Below, in pieces: positions 21,001 through 31,425 of a DNA stretch of 52,044 nucleotides. Position numbers and translations under genes: made by a program. Origin of the DNA: Chloroflexota bacterium (GTDB lineage: Bacteria; Chloroflexota; Anaerolineae; Anaerolineales; Anaerolineaceae). Location: positions 1-52,044 of the forward strand of contig JAAYCN010000114.1 in assembly GCA_012729755.1 (NCBI GenBank). Reading direction: 5' to 3'. Below the pieces are notes generated by a model. That model was not told the origin of the DNA. It ran no database searches and saw nothing but the letters and a program-made list of their open reading frames with translations. Every line of letters starts with the position of its first letter. The first letter of the stretch is position 1.

Positions 21001-21954
21001 ATGACGAAGTCTGAAGCTGGTTTGGTTGTGCGCTCCCAGGCCGGATATATGACGGTCAAGACTGATCGCGGTGAAGTGGTCTGCCGGGTGCGTGGAAGGC
21101 TGAGACGCTGGCGTGCCGAAGGTGATCTAGTCGCAGTCGGTGATAACGTGCGCATCTCCCGCAACGACGACGGAAGTGGAAATATTGATGAAGTGCTTCC
21201 GCGCAAATCAGTGCTCGCCAGACAGCTTTCAGGTGTCAGTTATGATTACAAACAGATCATTCTGGCCAATCCAGATCAGGTGCTCTTGGTTTTTGCCGTC
21301 AAACAGCCCGATCCTCGCCTGCGAATGCTGGACCGGTTTTTGGTTGTCGCGGAACGGGCTCAGATACCGGCGGTGATCATCGTCAATAAGGTGGACCTGG
21401 TTGATCAGAATTATGCGGTGTCTCTGTTCGCTCCATACGAGAAAATTGGCTATCGGGTGATCTACGCCTCAGCTTATACCGGCGAACGTTTGGACGAGAT
21501 TCGGGGATTGCTGCCCGGAAAGATCACTACCCTTGCAGGCCCGTCCGGAGTGGGCAAGACTTCCCTGCTCAATGCCATTAAACCTGGTTTGGCCCAGTTG
21601 GTTGGCTCAGTCAGCCAGGGTGTGGGGAGGGAAAAAGGTAAACACACCACCCAGGTAAGACAGCTGTTTGAGCTTTCTGAGGGCGGCTATTTGGCAGACG
21701 TCCCGGGCATGCGCACATTGGCTTTATGGGATATTAAAGGCGAAGAGTTGGATGCTTATTTCCGTGAGATCGCCCGCCTCGTCCCGCGCTGCAAGTTTAA
21801 CGACTGCACCCATAGCCACGAACCTGGGTGCGCGGTGAGAGAGGCGGTAGAAACAGGCGAAGTCTCACCCGCTCGCTATGATTCTTATTTACGGTTGCGT
21901 TTTGGCCACCTCCAGGATGGCGATATAGAGGATGAAGATGATTTTGAAGATTAG
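21001..21954 (+). CDS. rsgA: ribosome small subunit biogenesis GTPase RsgA
   Basis: RsgA is a circularly permuted GTPase that checks late 30S assembly. The order OB-fold, then NKVD (G4, residues 129-132), then GPSGVGKT (G1, 180-187), then DVPG (G3) shows the permutation. The C-terminal zinc-binding part has C-x4-C-x-H-x5-C (CKFNDCTHSHEPGC). The length of 317 is standard. AGAGG lies 4 bases before the ATG. The 3' end overlaps the next gene by about 17-23 bp. Confidence 0.95.
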   Translation: MTKSEAGLVVRSQAGYMTVKTDRGEVVCRVRGRLRRWRAEGDLVAVGDNVRISRNDDGSGNIDEVLPRKSVLARQLSGVSYDYKQIILANPDQVLLVFAVKQPDPRLRMLDRFLVVAERAQIPAVIIVNKVDLVDQNYAVSLFAPYEKIGYRVIYASAYTGERLDEIRGLLPGKITTLAGPSGVGKTSLLNAIKPGLAQLVGSVSQGVGREKGKHTTQVRQLFELSEGGYLADVPGMRTLALWDIKGEELDAYFREIARLVPRCKFNDCTHSHEPGCAVREAVETGEVSPARYDSYLRLRFGHLQDGDIEDEDDFED

Positions 21955-23728
21955 AAAATGCTGGCAGGACGTTGCGCTCTGCTTGGCTGCGCTGTCGCTT
22001 GTGCTGACAGCGTGCGGTCCAAAACAGGCCGAACTCACGTCGACAGCGGCACAAACCGAACTCCCCACGGCGGCTGCAGCGTCAGCTGAACCTGCTGATG
22101 CGTCCCAACCGCGCGTGCTGAATGTATGTACGGCTGAAGAACCAGTCAGTCTGTATCGTTATGATGGCAGGAACTCAATCTCAAAACAGACAATCTTCAG
22201 TGCCCTCTACGGCGGGACGTTCATGGCACGAGAAGAGCTCTGGGAGAGCTTGCTTGATCAAATGCCCTCGCTGGAAAACGGCGCCATCGAGATTGTCTCC
22301 AAAACGGTGGAGGCGGGAGATGTGGTTGTCGATTTAGCCGGCCATCTGGTCGTGTTAAAACCAGGCGTTCAGGTCGTCCCATTTGGCTGTGGCGAGGGGG
22401 ACTGTTCAATAACCTGGGATGGCGAATCTGAGCTCAGTCTGCCTCAGGTGGTGATTTCTTATCAGCTGAAGCCAGACTTGGTTTGGTCTGATGGCGAACC
22501 GTTGACAGCGAGCGATTTGCTGTTTGCTTTTCAGGTCGATGGCGATGATGCTACCCCTACCACCAAGCGCAGGGTTGATTTTACCGACACGGCGGCTGTT
22601 TCAGGCGATCTCATTTTTATCTGGAAAGGAGTTCCGGGGATTTCGACACCTCATCCGGAACGTTACCTTTGGGCGCCGCTGCCGGAACATCTCTTGGGGA
22701 ATTTGGGTGCCAAAGAAGTTCTCGAAAGTGACCTGGCCAACCAATCCCCCTTGGGTTGGGGGCCATACCGAATGACCAGCTGGGACCGTGGCGAACAGAT
22801 CAGCTTTGAACGCGGCCCCCGCGACCCGTTAAATGAACCGGTAATCAATCAATTCGATTACCTGAACATTAAATTTGTGCCGCAAAAGAATGACGCCCTG
22901 CGGGCGTTTGAGCAAGGGGAATGCGACATTTTGGACGCGTCATTTGGGTTGAATGACGGCGATGCCAATGGTGTCGTCCGTCTGATACCGCTTAATGAAT
23001 ATGGCGCCCTGGTGTTTGGCGTCAAACCTTCAAGTTATGATGATGGCCATTCGCTGTGGGATGAAGAACGCCCAGATTATTTTAACGATCTGCGCGTGCG
23101 GCAGGCAATCGCTCTGTGTATTGACCCGCGAGCTCTGATGGCCGATGTGGCCATTGAGCATTATCACGCTGATCCTGATAGTGTTAATTTGCCAGACAAC
23201 AGTCTGCCAGCAGTGCAGCCAGATGCCTTATTGAGCGAAGCTGGCTGGGTGGATGAAGATGATTTGCCGCAGACGCCCCGTGTTTCCCAGGGAAGCTCTT
23301 TCGTCAATGACGGTACGCCCTTTGAAATAAAGCTGTATAGCGGCCTGGCTGAGGCGGATGTTTACGCTGCCCAGAAGGTGGCGGAACGGCTGGGCGCCTG
23401 TGGGATTAAGGTGGGTGTGAGCAGCTTGCCGGCTGTCGAGTTGTATGCTCCTGGCCCCAACGGCGTGCTGTTCGGGCGTCAGTTTGACCTGGCTCTGGTG
23501 AACTGGTCGGGTTACCCCGGGGTCGCCAAGGACTGTGAGTATTATTTAAGCAGCCAGGTGCCGAACGCTGCCAATAGCTGGGTGGGGACGAATTTGGCAG
23601 GTTGGGCGGACGCGGCTTTTGATGCGGCGTGTCTGCATGGCGAAATGCCGAATCAGCTCTTGGCGCTTGATCTGACCAGACGTTACGAAGTGGAAATCTG
23701 GCGCCAGGGACTGCTGTCTGTGGAATAA
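21938..23728 (+). CDS. family-5 ABC solute-binding lipoprotein (canonical order)
   Basis: The signal peptide ends in the lipobox LTAC, followed by a Thr/Ala/Glu linker. The family-5 (oligopeptide/nickel-type) fold is in the usual order: VWSDGEPLTASDLLFAF (about residue 170), WGPYRMTSW (about 272), FEQGECDILDA (about 325) and LRVRQAIALCIDPRALM (about 385). It binds a peptide or similar ligand extracellularly. No permease genes are adjacent; the nearest importer is the operon at 24314, which has its own binding protein. In-frame ATGs exist at 21932 and 21938; the AGAGG at 21927-21931 favours 21938. The gene overlaps rsgA. Substrate unknown. Confidence 0.87.
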   Translation: MILKIRKCWQDVALCLAALSLVLTACGPKQAELTSTAAQTELPTAAAASAEPADASQPRVLNVCTAEEPVSLYRYDGRNSISKQTIFSALYGGTFMAREELWESLLDQMPSLENGAIEIVSKTVEAGDVVVDLAGHLVVLKPGVQVVPFGCGEGDCSITWDGESELSLPQVVISYQLKPDLVWSDGEPLTASDLLFAFQVDGDDATPTTKRRVDFTDTAAVSGDLIFIWKGVPGISTPHPERYLWAPLPEHLLGNLGAKEVLESDLANQSPLGWGPYRMTSWDRGEQISFERGPRDPLNEPVINQFDYLNIKFVPQKNDALRAFEQGECDILDASFGLNDGDANGVVRLIPLNEYGALVFGVKPSSYDDGHSLWDEERPDYFNDLRVRQAIALCIDPRALMADVAIEHYHADPDSVNLPDNSLPAVQPDALLSEAGWVDEDDLPQTPRVSQGSSFVNDGTPFEIKLYSGLAEADVYAAQKVAERLGACGIKVGVSSLPAVELYAPGPNGVLFGRQFDLALVNWSGYPGVAKDCEYYLSSQVPNAANSWVGTNLAGWADAAFDAACLHGEMPNQLLALDLTRRYEVEIWRQGLLSVE

Positions 23729-24313: not shown

Positions 24314-26866
24314 ATGAATCGAAAGTTATTTACGGTTCTCAGTGTTGTGATCGTTGCCAGCATGCTTCTCGCAGCTTGCGGTCAACTATCTGTAGCTCCC
24401 ACTGCTGAACCCCCCGTTGTCACGGAAGCCCCCACCGAGGCTCCCGCTGAGGCTCCCACCGCGGAACCCACTCCAGAACCCACGCCTGAGAAAACAACCC
24501 GTGTGGGCGGCTGGTTGGATGAGATCGTCTATACCGTAGCAGATCCTGCTGCAGTGCTCACCCAAATCCAGGCTGGTGATGTTGACATTTACGCTGAAGG
24601 ACTTGGTCCGGCTCAACTTGAAGCTATCAAAGAATCTGGTTTGGGATACTCCTCGTCTCAGGGAACCTATTATGACATCCTCTTCAACCCAGCTACCTTC
24701 AAGGATGGCCGTTTCAATCCTTTCACAAACCGCAAGATCCGTGAAGCGTTCAACTGGTTGGTTGATCGTGAATACTTCGCCCAGGAAATCTTTAACGGCG
24801 GCGCAAAAGCCAAATGGTTCGCGATTACCACTGAATGGCCAGATTATGCCGATCTCGCTGATACTGTCCGAAAACTGGAAAGCTACTATGCTTACGATCC
24901 AGACAAGGCCAAAGAAGTTATTACAGCTGAGATGGAGGGTATGGGGGCTGAATTGGTGGACGGTGTGTGGTCCTATAATGGCGAACCCATTAAATTGAAT
25001 TTCCTCATCCGTAATGACGCCGCCCGTACCGCAATGGGCGACTGGATTGCTGATAAGCTGGAAGAAATGGGCTTTGCTGAGATCGACCGCCAATACAAAT
25101 CCGGTTCCGAAGCTTCTCCAATCTGGATTGGTTCAGATCCTAAGGAAGGCCAATGGCATATCTACACCGCTGGTTGGGGCGCTTCAGTCATTGACCGCGA
25201 TCAGGGAAATATTTTCCAGGAAATGTACCTGCCCACTTCACAGCAGGGTATTCCAGTATGGCTGGTAAACGAACCAGATCCAGAATTCCAGGAACTTGGC
25301 GATCGTCTTTACAATGCTGACTACACGACTCTTGAAGAACGTCATCAGATGATGGCACGTGCTCTCGAGCTTTCTCTTCAGGACTCGTTCCAGTTATTCC
25401 TGATCGATTCCATCGATTTCACGCCTTATCGATCCGACCTGGTTGCGGTTGCCGACCTTGCTGCTGGCGTTCAGGGAGCTCAGGTTGCCCCCTATATGCT
25501 CCGCTTTGATGGCGAGGAGGGTGGTACCGTCAAATGGGCTCAGCAGGATCTTTTTGCTGAACCTTACAACCCAATTGCGGGAACGAACTGGACCTTTGAC
25601 CAGGCCGTGATTCGCTCTACTCAAACCGGCGACGTCCTCTACGATCCATACACCGGTCTCGTCCACGGCCATCGCCTCGAAAGTTCCGCGATCACCATGC
25701 AAACTGGATTGCCTGTCGGCAAGACTCTCGATTGGGTAACCCTCGATTTCGCAGACGAAATCGTTGTTCCTGATGACGCCTGGTTTGACTGGGACGCGGA
25801 AGCTCAGAAATTTATCACCGTTGCCGAAGCTGGCAAGACCGGTTTAACTGCCAAACGCAAAGCCGTTTCTGTCTACCCGGCCAACGTGTTTGAAGTGAAC
25901 AAATGGCATGACGGTTCCAACATGGAACTGGCTGACATGATCATGTCCTTCATCCTGACCTTCGACCGTGCCAACGAGAAGAGCGCTATCTATGATGAAC
26001 AAGCTGTTCCTATGTTCAATGTCTTCAAGGACAGTTTCAGAGGTTTGAAGATTACCTCCACTGATCCCCTGACCATCGAGTACTACAGTGACAGCTACTC
26101 TCAGGATGCCGAACTGAACGCTGCAGGCCTATGGCCAACCTGGACCTCTGGTGAATTGTCATTCTCCCAGGCTGCTGCTGCGAACGCTGCCGAAGCCGCG
26201 GGCGAATTAGCTTACTCATCTGATAAAGCTACCTCTGAAGAAGTCGAACAAACCAGCTTCATTGGTGGCCCCAGCCTTGAAATCCTCGCCGCGAAATTGG
26301 ACGAGTTAATTGCCAATCAAACAGTGCCTTACGAAGCCACCCTTGGTGAGTTCATTACTCCTGAGCAGGCTGTCGCCCGCTACGAAGCCCTCAAGGCATG
26401 GTATGCCGAAAAAGGACATATGTGGGAAGGTACTGGCCCCTACTTCGTGGACCAGGTTTACATGACCGAGAAGTCGCTGGTTGTCAAGCACAACGATCAG
26501 TATCCTGATTTGGCTGATCGCTGGAGTATGTTTGCGAATCCCATGATCGCCACAGCCGAAATTGACGGACCAGGCCAGGTCACGGTCGGCGAAGCTGCCA
26601 CCTTCGATGTGTTCGTAAGCTTTGAAGATGCGCCTTATCCCGCCGGAGATGTCAAGCAAGTTAAATACCTGCTTTACAATGCGGCGAACGAGTTGGTTGT
26701 CATCGGCGAAGCTGTGCTCGTTGAGGATGGTCATTACGCGGTGGAATTAACCGCTGATGATACCACCATGCTTGGCGCTGGTTCGAACAAACTCGAAATC
26801 GCAGTTATTCCGATCCCAGTCAGTCAGCCGACTTTCACTTCGGTTGAATTTGTGACTGCCCAATAA
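24314..26866 (+). CDS. peptide-type ABC solute-binding lipoprotein with permuted family-5 fold (850 aa)
   Basis: The lipoprotein signal ends LLAAC, followed by a Pro/Glu/Ala/Thr linker to residue 60. Family-5 motifs occur in rotated order. The segment normally in the second half comes first: IQAGDVDIYAEGLG (about 79) and KIREAFNWLVDREYFAQEIF (about 140). The segment normally first comes later: YDPYTG (about 442), WHDG...ADMIMSF (about 527-545) and GTGPYFVDQ (about 705). A C-terminal beta-rich domain (about 755-850) follows. Shine-Dalgarno TAAGGAGG precedes the ATG. It captures a peptide-like ligand outside the cell for the permease encoded next. A strong hairpin after the gene suggests it is made in excess of the permease. 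Confidence 0.85.
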   Translation: MNRKLFTVLSVVIVASMLLAACGQLSVAPTAEPPVVTEAPTEAPAEAPTAEPTPEPTPEKTTRVGGWLDEIVYTVADPAAVLTQIQAGDVDIYAEGLGPAQLEAIKESGLGYSSSQGTYYDILFNPATFKDGRFNPFTNRKIREAFNWLVDREYFAQEIFNGGAKAKWFAITTEWPDYADLADTVRKLESYYAYDPDKAKEVITAEMEGMGAELVDGVWSYNGEPIKLNFLIRNDAARTAMGDWIADKLEEMGFAEIDRQYKSGSEASPIWIGSDPKEGQWHIYTAGWGASVIDRDQGNIFQEMYLPTSQQGIPVWLVNEPDPEFQELGDRLYNADYTTLEERHQMMARALELSLQDSFQLFLIDSIDFTPYRSDLVAVADLAAGVQGAQVAPYMLRFDGEEGGTVKWAQQDLFAEPYNPIAGTNWTFDQAVIRSTQTGDVLYDPYTGLVHGHRLESSAITMQTGLPVGKTLDWVTLDFADEIVVPDDAWFDWDAEAQKFITVAEAGKTGLTAKRKAVSVYPANVFEVNKWHDGSNMELADMIMSFILTFDRANEKSAIYDEQAVPMFNVFKDSFRGLKITSTDPLTIEYYSDSYSQDAELNAAGLWPTWTSGELSFSQAAAANAAEAAGELAYSSDKATSEEVEQTSFIGGPSLEILAAKLDELIANQTVPYEATLGEFITPEQAVARYEALKAWYAEKGHMWEGTGPYFVDQVYMTEKSLVVKHNDQYPDLADRWSMFANPMIATAEIDGPGQVTVGEAATFDVFVSFEDAPYPAGDVKQVKYLLYNAANELVVIGEAVLVEDGHYAVELTADDTTMLGAGSNKLEIAVIPIPVSQPTFTSVEFVTAQ

Positions 26867-26884: not shown

Positions 26885-26918
26885 AAAAGGGGCAAGTTGT
26901 AAAATACTTGCCCCTTTT
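26885..26918 (+). terminator. perfect hairpin between binding protein and permease genes
   Basis: AAAAGGGGCAAGT (26885-26897) pairs perfectly over 13 bp with ACTTGCCCCTTTT (26906-26918), loop TGTAAAAT, then AT. In transport operons such hairpins allow partial read-through or protect the upstream mRNA, giving more binding protein than permease. Confidence 0.85.
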
Positions 26919-26940
26919 ATCAATAAAGTTGAGTAACGCT

Positions 26941-28065
26941 ATGGCTTCTGATACAAATTTTGAGCTCTCAAAACTTAATAAAGCCGCGGTATCCAACACG
27001 ATAAAACGCCTTTCGAAATTTATGGCGTTGAGGGTGGTAATGCTCTTTATCACCATTGTTGTTGGCATCTACATCACAATTCTCATCGCTAACATGGGTG
27101 GTTACGTGGACACAATCATGCGTAATGATATTCGTGAGCGTGTGAATATGCAGGTGTCCGCGATGACCGCCAACAAACCCATGAGTACTGAACACAGAGC
27201 GGATTTGGTTAATAGAATGATTGCTTTGGAAGAAAAGCGCTTGGGGTTGAATACCCCCTTTGTGATTCGGTCTTTTCGCTACTTAGCGAATGCCCTCACA
27301 TTGAATCTCGGTCGCGCGGTCCACATGGTCAGCGATCATGGCTCAAGGGCTGTTAGTAATATTATCCTTGAGCGCCTGCCAGCCACTCTGTTGTTGATGG
27401 GAACGTCACAATTATTCTTGTTCATCTTTAGTGTGTTTATAGCGTTGGTGCTGTCCAGAGCTTACGGCAGTTTTTGGGACAAATTAATCATCACGCTTTC
27501 TCCCACATCATCCGCGCCCCCTTGGTTTTACGGAATCTTCTTTATTTTGCTGTTTGCGGCTGTTCTGAAAATTCTGCCCTTTAGTGGCATGGTTTCTGCC
27601 CCGCCGCCTAAAGAAACCGGCGCCTATATTCTCGACCTGCTGAAGCATTTAATTCTGCCAGCCGGGTCATTAGTTATTTCTTCTATCGCTATCAGTATCT
27701 ATAACTGGAGAACCTTCTTTCTGATCTATTCCAGCGAAGACTACGTTGATGTGGCTAAAGCTAAAGGCCTGAACCCGCGCGAAATAGAACGCCGATATAT
27801 TCTGCGTCCAACTTTGCCGACCATTGTGACCAATTTTGCGCTCTTGGTAATTGGTCTGTTCACTGGGGCAACGATTACGGAGACGATCTTCTTATGGCCT
27901 GGTTTGGGTCGAACGATCTATCGAGCCGTAGGTTTGTATGATACCCCGGTCATCGTTGGCACGACCATCATTTATGCTTACCTGCTTGCCTTTACAGTGT
28001 TTTTCCTGGACTTTATATATGCTATTGTAGACCCGAGGGTCAAAGTAGGTGGGGGGAACAGTTAA
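26941..28065 (+). CDS. ABC transporter permease, DppB/OppB type
   Basis: The 374-residue inner-membrane subunit has six predicted helices. The first is near residues 27-45, followed by a long extracytoplasmic segment (about 50-150) with the charged stretch EEKRLGLNTPF. The conserved EAA-type cytoplasmic loop is DVAKAKGLNPREIERRYILRPTLP, which docks the ATPase. The frame is open from 26908, but that start lies inside the upstream hairpin, so ATG at 26941 is chosen. The ribosome-binding site is weak (GTTGAG). The next permease begins one base after the stop. It forms the translocation channel with the DppC-type subunit. Confidence 0.9.
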   Translation: MASDTNFELSKLNKAAVSNTIKRLSKFMALRVVMLFITIVVGIYITILIANMGGYVDTIMRNDIRERVNMQVSAMTANKPMSTEHRADLVNRMIALEEKRLGLNTPFVIRSFRYLANALTLNLGRAVHMVSDHGSRAVSNIILERLPATLLLMGTSQLFLFIFSVFIALVLSRAYGSFWDKLIITLSPTSSAPPWFYGIFFILLFAAVLKILPFSGMVSAPPPKETGAYILDLLKHLILPAGSLVISSIAISIYNWRTFFLIYSSEDYVDVAKAKGLNPREIERRYILRPTLPTIVTNFALLVIGLFTGATITETIFLWPGLGRTIYRAVGLYDTPVIVGTTIIYAYLLAFTVFFLDFIYAIVDPRVKVGGGNS

Positions 28066-28066
28066 C

Positions 28067-28900
28067 ATGAAGAATTTTAAGAATACATTACGTGAAATCT
28101 CACACTACCCATCGGCGATATTTGGCGTCATCATCATCATACTATTAGTTGTGTTGGCCATCTATGCGGTGAACGCTATCCCTTACGAAGAAGCTGTCCG
28201 CCAGTGGCGAGGTGGTGAGGAAGTAGTCTATAAAAACCCGAAAAATGTTCCTCCAGCGTGGTTCAACTACTTTACTGACAAGGATTTGCCGATTTCCTTT
28301 GCCGTTGTTGCTGGTGAGGATGAAGAGTTCACCAAGGTTGTTACCCAGGGAGATACCACCGACACAATCGACTACGAATATTCCTTCGATTTTCCTTATG
28401 ACGAATTTCCTCAGGAGCTGTTTCTCTATATCCAGTCTGACTACAAGGTCAAGAATCCGTTCCTTTCAGTCGTCCTCGAGACGCCTGATGGCGGAGAGAT
28501 AAAAATTAGCGACTTTGGTGCGTCGAATAAGCAAACCTACCGTTTTTCTCAGGATGAAAAACTGGCCACTCGCCTTCGCCGCCTTCATGGCAAAGAAATC
28601 CAGGTGATGCGTGGTTTATTTTCTGTTCCCAAGTCAGATCCTTTGAAGGTCAACAAAGGTGTTTATACACTCAAGATCAAAGCTACTGTCTTCGAAAAGG
28701 GAACAGATGTCCGCATCGAGTTTGTCAATCATGGCCTTGTGTTTGGTCTGTTTGGGACAGATCACATGCGCCGCGATATTACGAGCTATTTTGTGGGGAG
28801 CCCCCATCGCCCTGGCGTTTGGTTTGTTGGCTGCGGCCGGCACGTCTATCCTTTCGATGTTAATTGCCGCGATCGGCGCATGGTTTGGCGGCTGGATTGA
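28067..28900 (+). pseudogene. ABC permease DppC-type, N-terminal part up to a frameshift
   Basis: The frame begins MKNFKNTLREISHYPSAIFG with the first membrane helix (about 17-38), then a large extracytoplasmic insert (about 45-225) not found in Escherichia coli DppC. It reaches the conserved FGTDHMRRD element at residue 237 (base 28777). After that the frame reads out of phase to a stop at 28900, giving a false tail beginning ITSYFVGSPHR. The proper continuation (LRAILWGAPIAL) lies in the +1 phase from 28779. A gain of one base or loss of two at about 28775-28781 explains this. It may be a sequencing error, a recent mutation or recoding. Confidence 0.8.
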
Positions 28901-29423
28901 TGAGTTGATTCAGAGAATCACTGAAATCAATCTGGTTTTACCTTTCCTGTCGATATTAATCATGGTCGGCACGTTTTACTCCCGAAGTATCTGGGTTATT
29001 CTTGGGGTAACCATCGCGTTGTCGATCTTTACAGGGGCAATTAAAACCGACCGGGCTATCTTCCTCCAGGTTAAAGAGTCCACTTATATCGAAGCGGCGA
29101 AAGCCTATGGCGCGGGCGACTTCCGCATTATCGTCCGCTACCTGATTCCGCGCATCATCCCGCTGCTCATCCCGGGTTTGGTTTCAGCCGTGCCGAGCTA
29201 TGTTTTCCTTGAGGCGTCATTGGCGCTGTTGGGGCTGGGTGATCCGACTTTGCCCACCTGGGGTAAAGTGATCAACGACGCGCGTGAGAACGGGGCGTTA
29301 TATAAAGGACAGTTTTATTGGATACTCGAACCTGCCCTGTTGCTGATGATCACAGGTCTCGGATTCGCCATGTTTGGGTTTGCCCTGGATCGAATCTTCA
29401 ATCCAAGACTCAGGGGAATGTAA
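28779..29423 (+). pseudogene. ABC permease DppC-type, C-terminal part after the frameshift
   Basis: From 28779 the frame reads LRAILWGAPIALAFG and continues through four to five membrane helices with the EAA loop YIEAAKAYGAGDFRIIVRYL and the typical C-terminal LDRIFNPRLRGM. Together with 28067-28777 it makes one complete DppC/OppC-type permease of about 450 residues. The frame is open upstream to 28659, but that part has no homology to the family and overlaps the true N-terminal frame. The ATPase gene starts 3 bases after the stop. Confidence 0.85.
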
Positions 29424-29425
29424 AA

Positions 29426-30400
29426 ATGAATGAAGAAAAAGTAATTCGTATTCAAGATCTTAAACTGCACTTCATCACCACCAAAGGCCCTGTCCAGGCG
29501 GTTGATGGGGTCAATTTTGATCTAACTGCCAACAAAGCGGTTGTGGTGGTGGGGGAGTCTGGCTGCGGAAAGACCTCGCTGGCGAAAGCCATCTTGCGTC
29601 TTCTGCCGCGCAACGCCGGCGAATATTCAGGAAAAGTCTGGTTGAAAGATATCGAAACCATGTCGCTTTCTGACGAAGAATATCGCAAGAAAATTCGCTG
29701 GGTTCGTATGTCGATGGTTCCGCAGGCCGCAATGAACTCGCTTAATCCAGTGCTGAGGGTTGGTGAGCAGGTAGCGGAGCCGATGATTGTCCACTACGAT
29801 GTCAACAAGCATGAAGCCTTTGATCAGGCCGCTAAGATGTTCCAGAACGTTGGCGTGCCTGTTGACTTCTTGACCCGCTACCCCTTTGAACTGTCCGGCG
29901 GTATGCGTCAGCGTGTGGCGATTGCCATGTCCTTAGTGACCGGTCCTGATCTGGTCATTTTGGATGAACCTACTTCTGCGCTCGATGTGTTGACCCAGGC
30001 AAACATTTTTAACCTGCTTAAACGCATCAAGAATGAACTGCAGACCAGTTTTATTCTTATCACGCATGATATCTCCACTTCATCAGAGTTGGCCGACATC
30101 GTCGCTGTTATGTACGCGGGTCAGATCGTAGAGGTCAGTGGATCTCACCGCTTCTTCAGCAATCCGCGGCATCCATACTCTGCCAAACTGATGGCCAGTG
30201 TGCCGAGACTGCGTACTAAAGAAGAGCCCGACTTTATCGTTGGTCGTCCGCCTTCGTTAATTAACCCTCCCAAGGGATGCCGCTTTGCAGAGCGCTGTCC
30301 CAAACGCTTTGAGAAATGCAGTGAAGAGCCACCCATTTATCAGTTTGGTGAAGATTGGGTTAAATGCTGGCTCTATGAAGGGGAAGGTGACCAGAAATGA
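29426..30400 (+). CDS. peptide ABC transporter ATPase, DppD/OppD type
   Basis: This cytoplasmic ATPase powers the importer. It has Walker A GESGCGKTS (about residue 38), Q-loop VPQAAMNSLNP, signature LSGGMRQRV, Walker B LVILDEPTSALD and switch ITHDIS. The C-terminal oligopeptide-transporter extension has NPPKGCRFAERCPKRFEKC, whose cysteines may bind an Fe-S cluster as in other Dpp/Opp ATPases. The frame is open from 29318 inside the permease, but the ATG at 29426 after AGGGGAATGTAAAA is the start. The stop overlaps the next ATPase start (ATGA). Confidence 0.93.
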   Translation: MNEEKVIRIQDLKLHFITTKGPVQAVDGVNFDLTANKAVVVVGESGCGKTSLAKAILRLLPRNAGEYSGKVWLKDIETMSLSDEEYRKKIRWVRMSMVPQAAMNSLNPVLRVGEQVAEPMIVHYDVNKHEAFDQAAKMFQNVGVPVDFLTRYPFELSGGMRQRVAIAMSLVTGPDLVILDEPTSALDVLTQANIFNLLKRIKNELQTSFILITHDISTSSELADIVAVMYAGQIVEVSGSHRFFSNPRHPYSAKLMASVPRLRTKEEPDFIVGRPPSLINPPKGCRFAERCPKRFEKCSEEPPIYQFGEDWVKCWLYEGEGDQK

Positions 30401-31425
30401 CGGAACAACTATCAACCAAAACTGGAATTGAACAACCAGAGATTAATATTCTCGAATTAAATGAGCTTGAAGTCTATTTTGAGCTGAAAAAATTTGGTTT
30501 TCAACACGCTGGCTATGTTCGCGCCGTTGATGGCGTCAGCATGAAACTCAGGCGGGGTGAAACGATCGCGATCGTTGGTGAAAGTGGCAGCGGCAAAACC
30601 AGCCTGATGAGAACCATCCTGCGTTTAAACACGCCTACTAACGGAACGGTGACTTTTGATGGTCAGGTAGTTAATGCTCTCAACGCGACGGCGCTCAAAC
30701 AATTTAGGCATAAGGTCGGTTATGTCCAACAGGATCCATATGGCGCCATGCCGCCTTTCATGAGTGTCCGCTCCATCCTTGAGGAACCCCTCAAAATCAG
30801 CGGCATCAAAGATAAGGAAGAACGCTACCAGCGTGTCGTTAAGGTCATGGAAGAAGTCAAGATGACGCCGGTCGAAGAGTTCCTGCATAAGTTCCCTCAC
30901 CAGCTGAGCGGTGGGCAACAGCAGCGTATCGTCATCGCCAGGGCAATGATCCTCAACCCTGTTCTGCTCGTCGCCGATGAGCCTGTTTCCATGTTGGACG
31001 CTTCAGTGAGGGTCGAGATCCTGAAACTCTTGCGCAACTTACAGGAAACTCACAATCTCGCTGTCATCTATATCACACACGACCTGGCGACAGTGCGGTA
31101 CTTCTCCGAGTATATTTTTGTCATGTACGCCGGTCAGATCATCGAGAAGGCAACCGAATCAGACCTGATTAACCATACCGCTCATCCTTATACTCATGCG
31201 CTGTTGGCTGCCACCTCTGATCCTGACCCCAAGAATGTTGACGAGTTTCAGGATGTGCCGCCCGGAGAGCCCCCCTCGTTGGTGAATCCGCCAGAAGGCT
31301 GCCGTTTCCATCCGCGGTGTGCACATATGATTGCGGGCAAGTGTGATACAACCCGACCGCCTGATTTCGACCTGGGCAACAGCCATATAGTTGCCTGCTG
31401 GTTGTTCGAGGATAAAGGTGTCTAG
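30397..31425 (+). CDS. peptide ABC transporter ATPase, DppF/OppF type
   Basis: The second ATPase of the importer heterodimer has 342 residues. It has Walker A GESGSGKTS, Q-loop VQQDPYGAMPP, signature LSGGQQQR, Walker B LLVADEPVSMLD, ITHDLA and the C-terminal NPPEGCRFHPRCAHM extension. Within Walker B the usual LLDEP is LVADEP, with the catalytic Glu kept. Translation is coupled to the preceding ATPase by a 4-bp ATGA overlap. The small membrane protein gene starts inside its 3' end. Confidence 0.93.
   Translation: MTEQLSTKTGIEQPEINILELNELEVYFELKKFGFQHAGYVRAVDGVSMKLRRGETIAIVGESGSGKTSLMRTILRLNTPTNGTVTFDGQVVNALNATALKQFRHKVGYVQQDPYGAMPPFMSVRSILEEPLKISGIKDKEERYQRVVKVMEEVKMTPVEEFLHKFPHQLSGGQQQRIVIARAMILNPVLLVADEPVSMLDASVRVEILKLLRNLQETHNLAVIYITHDLATVRYFSEYIFVMYAGQIIEKATESDLINHTAHPYTHALLAATSDPDPKNVDEFQDVPPGEPPSLVNPPEGCRFHPRCAHMIAGKCDTTRPPDFDLGNSHIVACWLFEDKGV

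Follow-up and report, generated by a model that had tools for sequence, protein, structure and literature searches.

The window, by which we mean the whole 52,044-nucleotide stretch of Chloroflexota DNA that was analyzed, encodes an 850-residue secreted lipoprotein and, 3' of its gene, the permeases and ATPases of an Opp/Dpp-type ABC importer (Table 1). The protein combines a lipobox with linkage to the OppBCDF genes; the motif LLAAC ends at Cys22, a residue that is invariant in 14 homologues. Beyond the tether, segments Y1 and Y2 correspond to the end of lobe 1, the whole of lobe 2 and the C-terminal strands of a family-5 solute-binding protein, while segment X corresponds to the start of lobe 1 with its extra domain. 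The C-terminal domain, which the earlier note had described as beta-rich, is Ig-like in its predicted structure, matching PKD, filamin and macroglobulin Ig-type sandwiches at Z ~11, and has no Pfam match. Further upstream, at 21932-23728, lies a family-5 protein whose residues 174-531 align with positions 18-352 of the PF00496 profile in one colinear stretch, so that this neighbor is of canonical order, as the earlier note had read it. The gene for the OppC-type permease is frameshifted near 28780-28800 in this assembly, whereas its relatives are intact and 445-500 residues long; the frameshift may be a sequencing error or may mark a broken gene, and this copy of the transporter may then be broken.

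Table 1. Coordinates of the lipoprotein gene, of the parts of its product and of the importer genes in the window.
Feature	Position	Strand	Basis
850-aa lipoprotein ORF	24314-26866	+	ATG start 3' of AAGGAGG site
Signal peptide and lipobox (MNRKLF...SMLLAAC), residues 1-22	24314..24379	+	sequence
Pro/Glu/Ala/Thr-rich tether (~40 aa), residues 23-62	24380..24499	+	sequence; pLDDT <50
Canonical second half (Y1+Y2), residues 63-399	24500..25510	+	PF00496 148-355; 7FI3 superposition
Canonical first half (X), residues 400-741	25511..26536	+	7FI3 superposition and sequence match
Ig-like beta-sandwich domain, residues 744-850	26543..26863	+	VIA-align
OppB-type permease	26908..28065	+	PF00528 E 2e-27; neighbors the binding-protein gene in almost all family loci that include flanks
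OppC-type permease, ~200-aa extracytoplasmic insert, frameshifted	28067..29423 (split gene, 28049-29423)	+	two overlapping frames; tblastn against intact relative
OppD-type ATPase	29426..30400	+	ABC_tran and oligo_HPY
OppF-type ATPase	30397..31425	+	ABC_tran and oligo_HPY

Comparisons at the sequence level place the two halves of the family-5 domain in swapped order. The PF00496 profile matched residues 68-297 with 89.3 bits, above the gathering cut-off of 32.4, and did so at profile positions 148-355, which constitute its second half. The best match in the PDB was an archaeal OppA (7FI3), recovered by phmmer as two stretches that were again swapped: with the single sequence as query, residues 476-730 aligned with 7FI3 62-306 (i-E 6e-7) and residues 133-291 with 401-569 (i-E 1e-12). 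A profile of 14 sequences extended these matches (483-737 on 64-308, 5e-15; 79-303 on 328-576, 5e-28; overall E 1e-43). When the sequence was rotated to start at residue 400, the two stretches merged into one unbroken match (77-578 on 7FI3 62-569) and the Pfam match became a single stretch spanning profile positions 28-355. The motifs listed in the earlier note were correctly placed to within a few residues (IQAGDVDI at 85-92, KIREAFNWLVDRE at 141-153, YDPYTG at 443-448, WHDG at 531-534 and GTGPY at ~705). The second half of the protein taken alone has no Pfam match. To our knowledge, all described members of SBP_bac_5 (PF00496) have a colinear N-to-C domain order. The 850-residue protein departs from it, with both segments homologous to the parent and contiguous after rotation, and the swapped order leads us to file it as a permuted homologue and not as an ordinary member of the family. 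The exchange of the halves also explains why only one half of such proteins is recognized by standard profile annotation.

Predicted structures describe the same arrangement. The AF2 model of the entire protein had a mean pLDDT of 80 and a pTM of 0.80, and its residues 64-401 superpose on 7FI3 346-755 (Z 25.4, 330 aligned residues, 2.7 Å). Searches with the full-length model in Foldseek and VIA-align revealed just one half, and for this reason residues 397-850 were modeled separately (pLDDT 86); residues 402-740 of this second model superpose on 7FI3 34-346 (Z 26.3, 293 aligned residues, 2.8 Å). The two matched ranges meet at residue 346 and together cover 7FI3 34-755, and between them the two predicted halves contain the two-lobed fold with its extra domain. 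The AF2 alignments comprised 14 sequences only, and pLDDT falls below 50 around the join (376-390 and 425-427).

These superpositions bear on the proposal that there is no permutation at all, the protein consisting either of two copies of one lobe or of a binding-protein half followed by an unrelated second half with short shared motifs. The absence of a Pfam match in the second half by itself would agree with such a proposal. However, each half superposes with Z >25 on a different part of 7FI3, the two parts being complementary, their sequence matches are complementary as well, and rotation yields a single contiguous match; we therefore regard the proposal as highly improbable, and a duplication of one lobe is ruled out by the superposition of the halves on different parts of the reference. 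The central statement of the earlier note, that the second half of the fold precedes the first, is in this way borne out by the swapped matches and their merging, by the superposition of the predicted halves and by the conservation of the order described below. Both outcomes that it had named as contrary to its reading, a first half resembling the N-terminal lobe and halves that copy one another, are at odds with the matches of the first half to 7FI3 346-755 and of the second to 34-346.

With the meeting point of the two halves at residue 346 of 7FI3, the models place the cut inside lobe 1, between the strand that follows GTGPY (KSLVVKHNDQYP) and the strand LDEIVYTV. Both termini of family-5 proteins such as OppA and DppA lie in lobe 1, and the parental termini are consequently expected to be spatially close. 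The excursion through lobe 2 and both crossovers between the lobes are contiguous (about 111-372, inside 64-401). As the cut falls within lobe 1 and leaves both crossovers intact, the topology suggests that the ligand cleft can assemble in the same way as in proteins of canonical order. This speaks against the earlier view that the new termini would demand reconstruction of the ligand site.

The taxonomic distribution of the rotated order was examined with segment HMMs for X (400-741), Y1 (63-224) and Y2 (225-398) run on the open frames of fetched loci. The order Y1-Y2-X was found in 58 of the 63 proteins that contain all three segments, and 13 aligned homologues are colinear with the window protein throughout, at 42-74% identity. 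Of the 400 Chloroflexota genomes sampled, 38, belonging to several classes, had a match at E 1e-15, with some of those in other classes at 26-30% identity; two close relatives were found by a scan of genome contigs. A lobe-2 motif, G-W-x(6)-R-D (R295 and D296), carries R or K in 62 of 63 proteins and D in 50 of 63, and is retained in most members of both permuted forms. The permutation is old and conserved across Chloroflexota. A search of the 400 genomes with the rotated profile for a sister of canonical order in the phylum returned, besides the permuted family, one weak contiguous match (G400, 54 bits), and tblastn against plasmids for relatives outside Chloroflexota gave either no match or partial matches to proteins of canonical type. 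Three members (L132, L117 and L118) carry an insertion of ~100 residues in segment X, near the equivalent of residues 506-522.

This conservation also bears on whether the gene is an artefact of assembly or gene prediction, that is, two genes or a scrambled contig read as one rearranged gene. The frameshift in the neighboring OppC gene indicates that the assembly is imperfect here. Against this, the reading frame has its own signal peptide and its own stop, and the identical order recurs in 58 proteins from many genomes, including genomes that are single contigs (e.g., G047, G097 and G243). The recurrence of the order in unrelated assemblies, together with the OppBCDF neighbors, argues that the gene is no artefact, and we give that explanation virtually no weight.

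The search with the rotated profile also uncovered a second rotation of the fold. In one genome (G445:C19), segment X runs straight into Y1 in a protein of 755 residues (L120:4858-7125), which has its own signal peptide and lipobox, followed by equivalents of residues 225-397, 400-737 and 55-224 of the window protein and then a stop. The PF00496 match of this protein is unbroken over the re-closed first break (profile 115-278). Four further proteins of order Y2-X-Y1, 38-46% identical to that of L120, were found, one each in G476 and G477 and two in G462 (one of these truncated by the start of its contig), giving five proteins (L120, L175, L176, L177 and L178) from four genomes of one Chloroflexota family. 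All five are cut at the same lobe-2 hairpin. Genes for OppB-C-D-F come after those of L120, L175 and L176, and OppC-D-F genes adjoin that of L177.

A tree of concatenated segments places the five proteins within the Y1-Y2-X family, in one sub-clade (UFBoot 100; FastTree 0.984), and this nested position indicates that the second rotation derives from the first. A single clade of all five Y2-X-Y1 proteins was rejected (AU p 8e-7), as was a clade of four that excludes L178 (AU p 6e-8). Over the final 30 residues of its Y1 segment, L177 shares 59-63% identity with L120, L175 and L176, versus 32% with its sister L119, and this mosaic C-terminal end makes exchange or recombination among paralogues likely. 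L178 clusters with L181, L182 and L067 whichever segment is considered, and also at the segment ends, and looks independent in origin. Judged from these sequences, the patterns suggest at least two origins of the second rotation plus exchange, their number not being settled. Together with canonical 7FI3 (X-Y1-Y2), the window protein and its relatives throughout Chloroflexota (Y1-Y2-X) and the five re-rotated proteins (Y2-X-Y1) represent all three cyclic orders of one binding-protein fold. Overall, we lean towards a history in which the third order arose from the second at least twice, each time at one and the same hairpin of lobe 2, and in which the permuted forms later exchanged sequence.

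In nearly all loci with flanks, the permuted gene is accompanied by OppB, an OppC with the long insert, OppD and OppF. The near type of OppC insert was present in 31 of the 400 Chloroflexota genomes, all of which carry the permuted protein; the remaining carriers form a distant group in which OppC is long but divergent. One interpretation of this pairing is that the permutation redirects the tether and supplies an additional Ig-like domain for docking to the enlarged OppC, and the restriction of the insert to genomes with the permuted protein (31/31) fits it. The co-occurrence is nevertheless confounded by operon linkage, and L119 and L120, which are devoid of the Ig domain, retain OppB and the long OppC. 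Pairing thus does not depend on the Ig domain, and a strict requirement for it was dropped. Docking of this kind is therefore an unlikely though not negligible account of the permutation. Orphan OppB-OppC fusions of ~900 residues with the same OppC insert (L183-L188) come from genomes in which the permuted system is likewise present, and no binding-protein gene of that system was seen beside them. In the distant operons L058-L064, a gene for a secreted ~740-residue protein with BNR repeats is located directly 5' of the permuted binding-protein gene.

Operon context also weighs on the possibility that the permuted protein is mainly a sensor or signaling domain and does not serve uptake. A Ser/Thr kinase with a membrane segment is fused to the permuted domain in one locus (L065:2-1876, minus strand), the domain stands behind a matrixin-like metallopeptidase domain with no adjacent permease in another (L066:2978-6205, minus strand), and some further family members are also devoid of an adjacent permease. 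In the window and in nearly all relatives, however, a cluster of the order SBP-OppB-OppC-OppD-OppF begins with this gene, which makes a primary role in sensing improbable. In the L065 fusion the permuted domain begins at the same new N-terminus, and the gene is cut by the contig end.

We consider it highly probable that the 850-residue protein is the tethered solute-binding lipoprotein of an Opp/Dpp-type ABC importer and has a circularly permuted family-5 fold, the fold of each half being a predicted one. Its ligand is most likely an oligopeptide, and the system would accordingly serve oligopeptide uptake. In the proposed arrangement, the old C- and N-termini, both of lobe 1, would be joined at about residue 400 (RFDGEE followed by GGTVKWAQ), and new termini would have been opened in the lobe-1 loop between the KSLVVKHNDQYP strand and LDEIVYTV. 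The signal peptide and tether would enter at this new loop, and the Ig-like domain would leave from its other side. With the lobe-2 excursion and the crossovers intact, the protein should close on its ligand; closure would be of the clamshell type, between the lobes, as in OppA, with subsequent delivery to OppB and OppC.

Duplication, fusion and loss of the outer ends is a standard model for the origin of circular permutants, and the permuted protein may have originated in this manner, through tandem duplication. Tandem copies of the permuted gene in L061 and L119 provide raw material for such a process, for which the term 'permutation by duplication' appears in an excerpt of the topic page PMC3320104. 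Neither a duplicated precursor nor a fused X-Y1-Y2-X-Y1-Y2 intermediate was found among the loci examined.

Circular permutations of natural origin are known from a variety of folds. The evolutionary significance of the present case is that a rotated binding protein has been kept in its operon across a phylum and that one sub-lineage has been rotated again, which offers a natural series for asking at which sites new termini are tolerated by a hinged receptor, whether the position of the tether affects docking to the permease and with what frequency permutation by duplication has taken place anew. The closest solved relative, both in sequence and in structure, is the OppA of Thermococcus kodakarensis (7FI3), likewise a long family-5 protein; it has the canonical order, from which the window protein differs by a rotation near residue 346 and by an additional Ig-like domain at the C-terminus. 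Canonical cluster C proteins (DppA 1DPP, AppA 1XOC, NikA and OppA) share with it the PF00496 domain, the two lobes with an extra domain and the OppBCDF-type operon. In contrast to them, the window protein has its halves in the opposite order, its N-terminus inside lobe 1 and a length of 850 residues. In the open-access literature we found engineered permuted solute-binding proteins only, and no natural one. FRET sensors with engineered permuted ligand-binding modules (Okada et al. 2009, cited in PMC3454389) resemble the window protein in that a ligand-binding module is permuted in both; those modules are man-made, whereas the permutation described here is natural, old, conserved and embedded in an operon.
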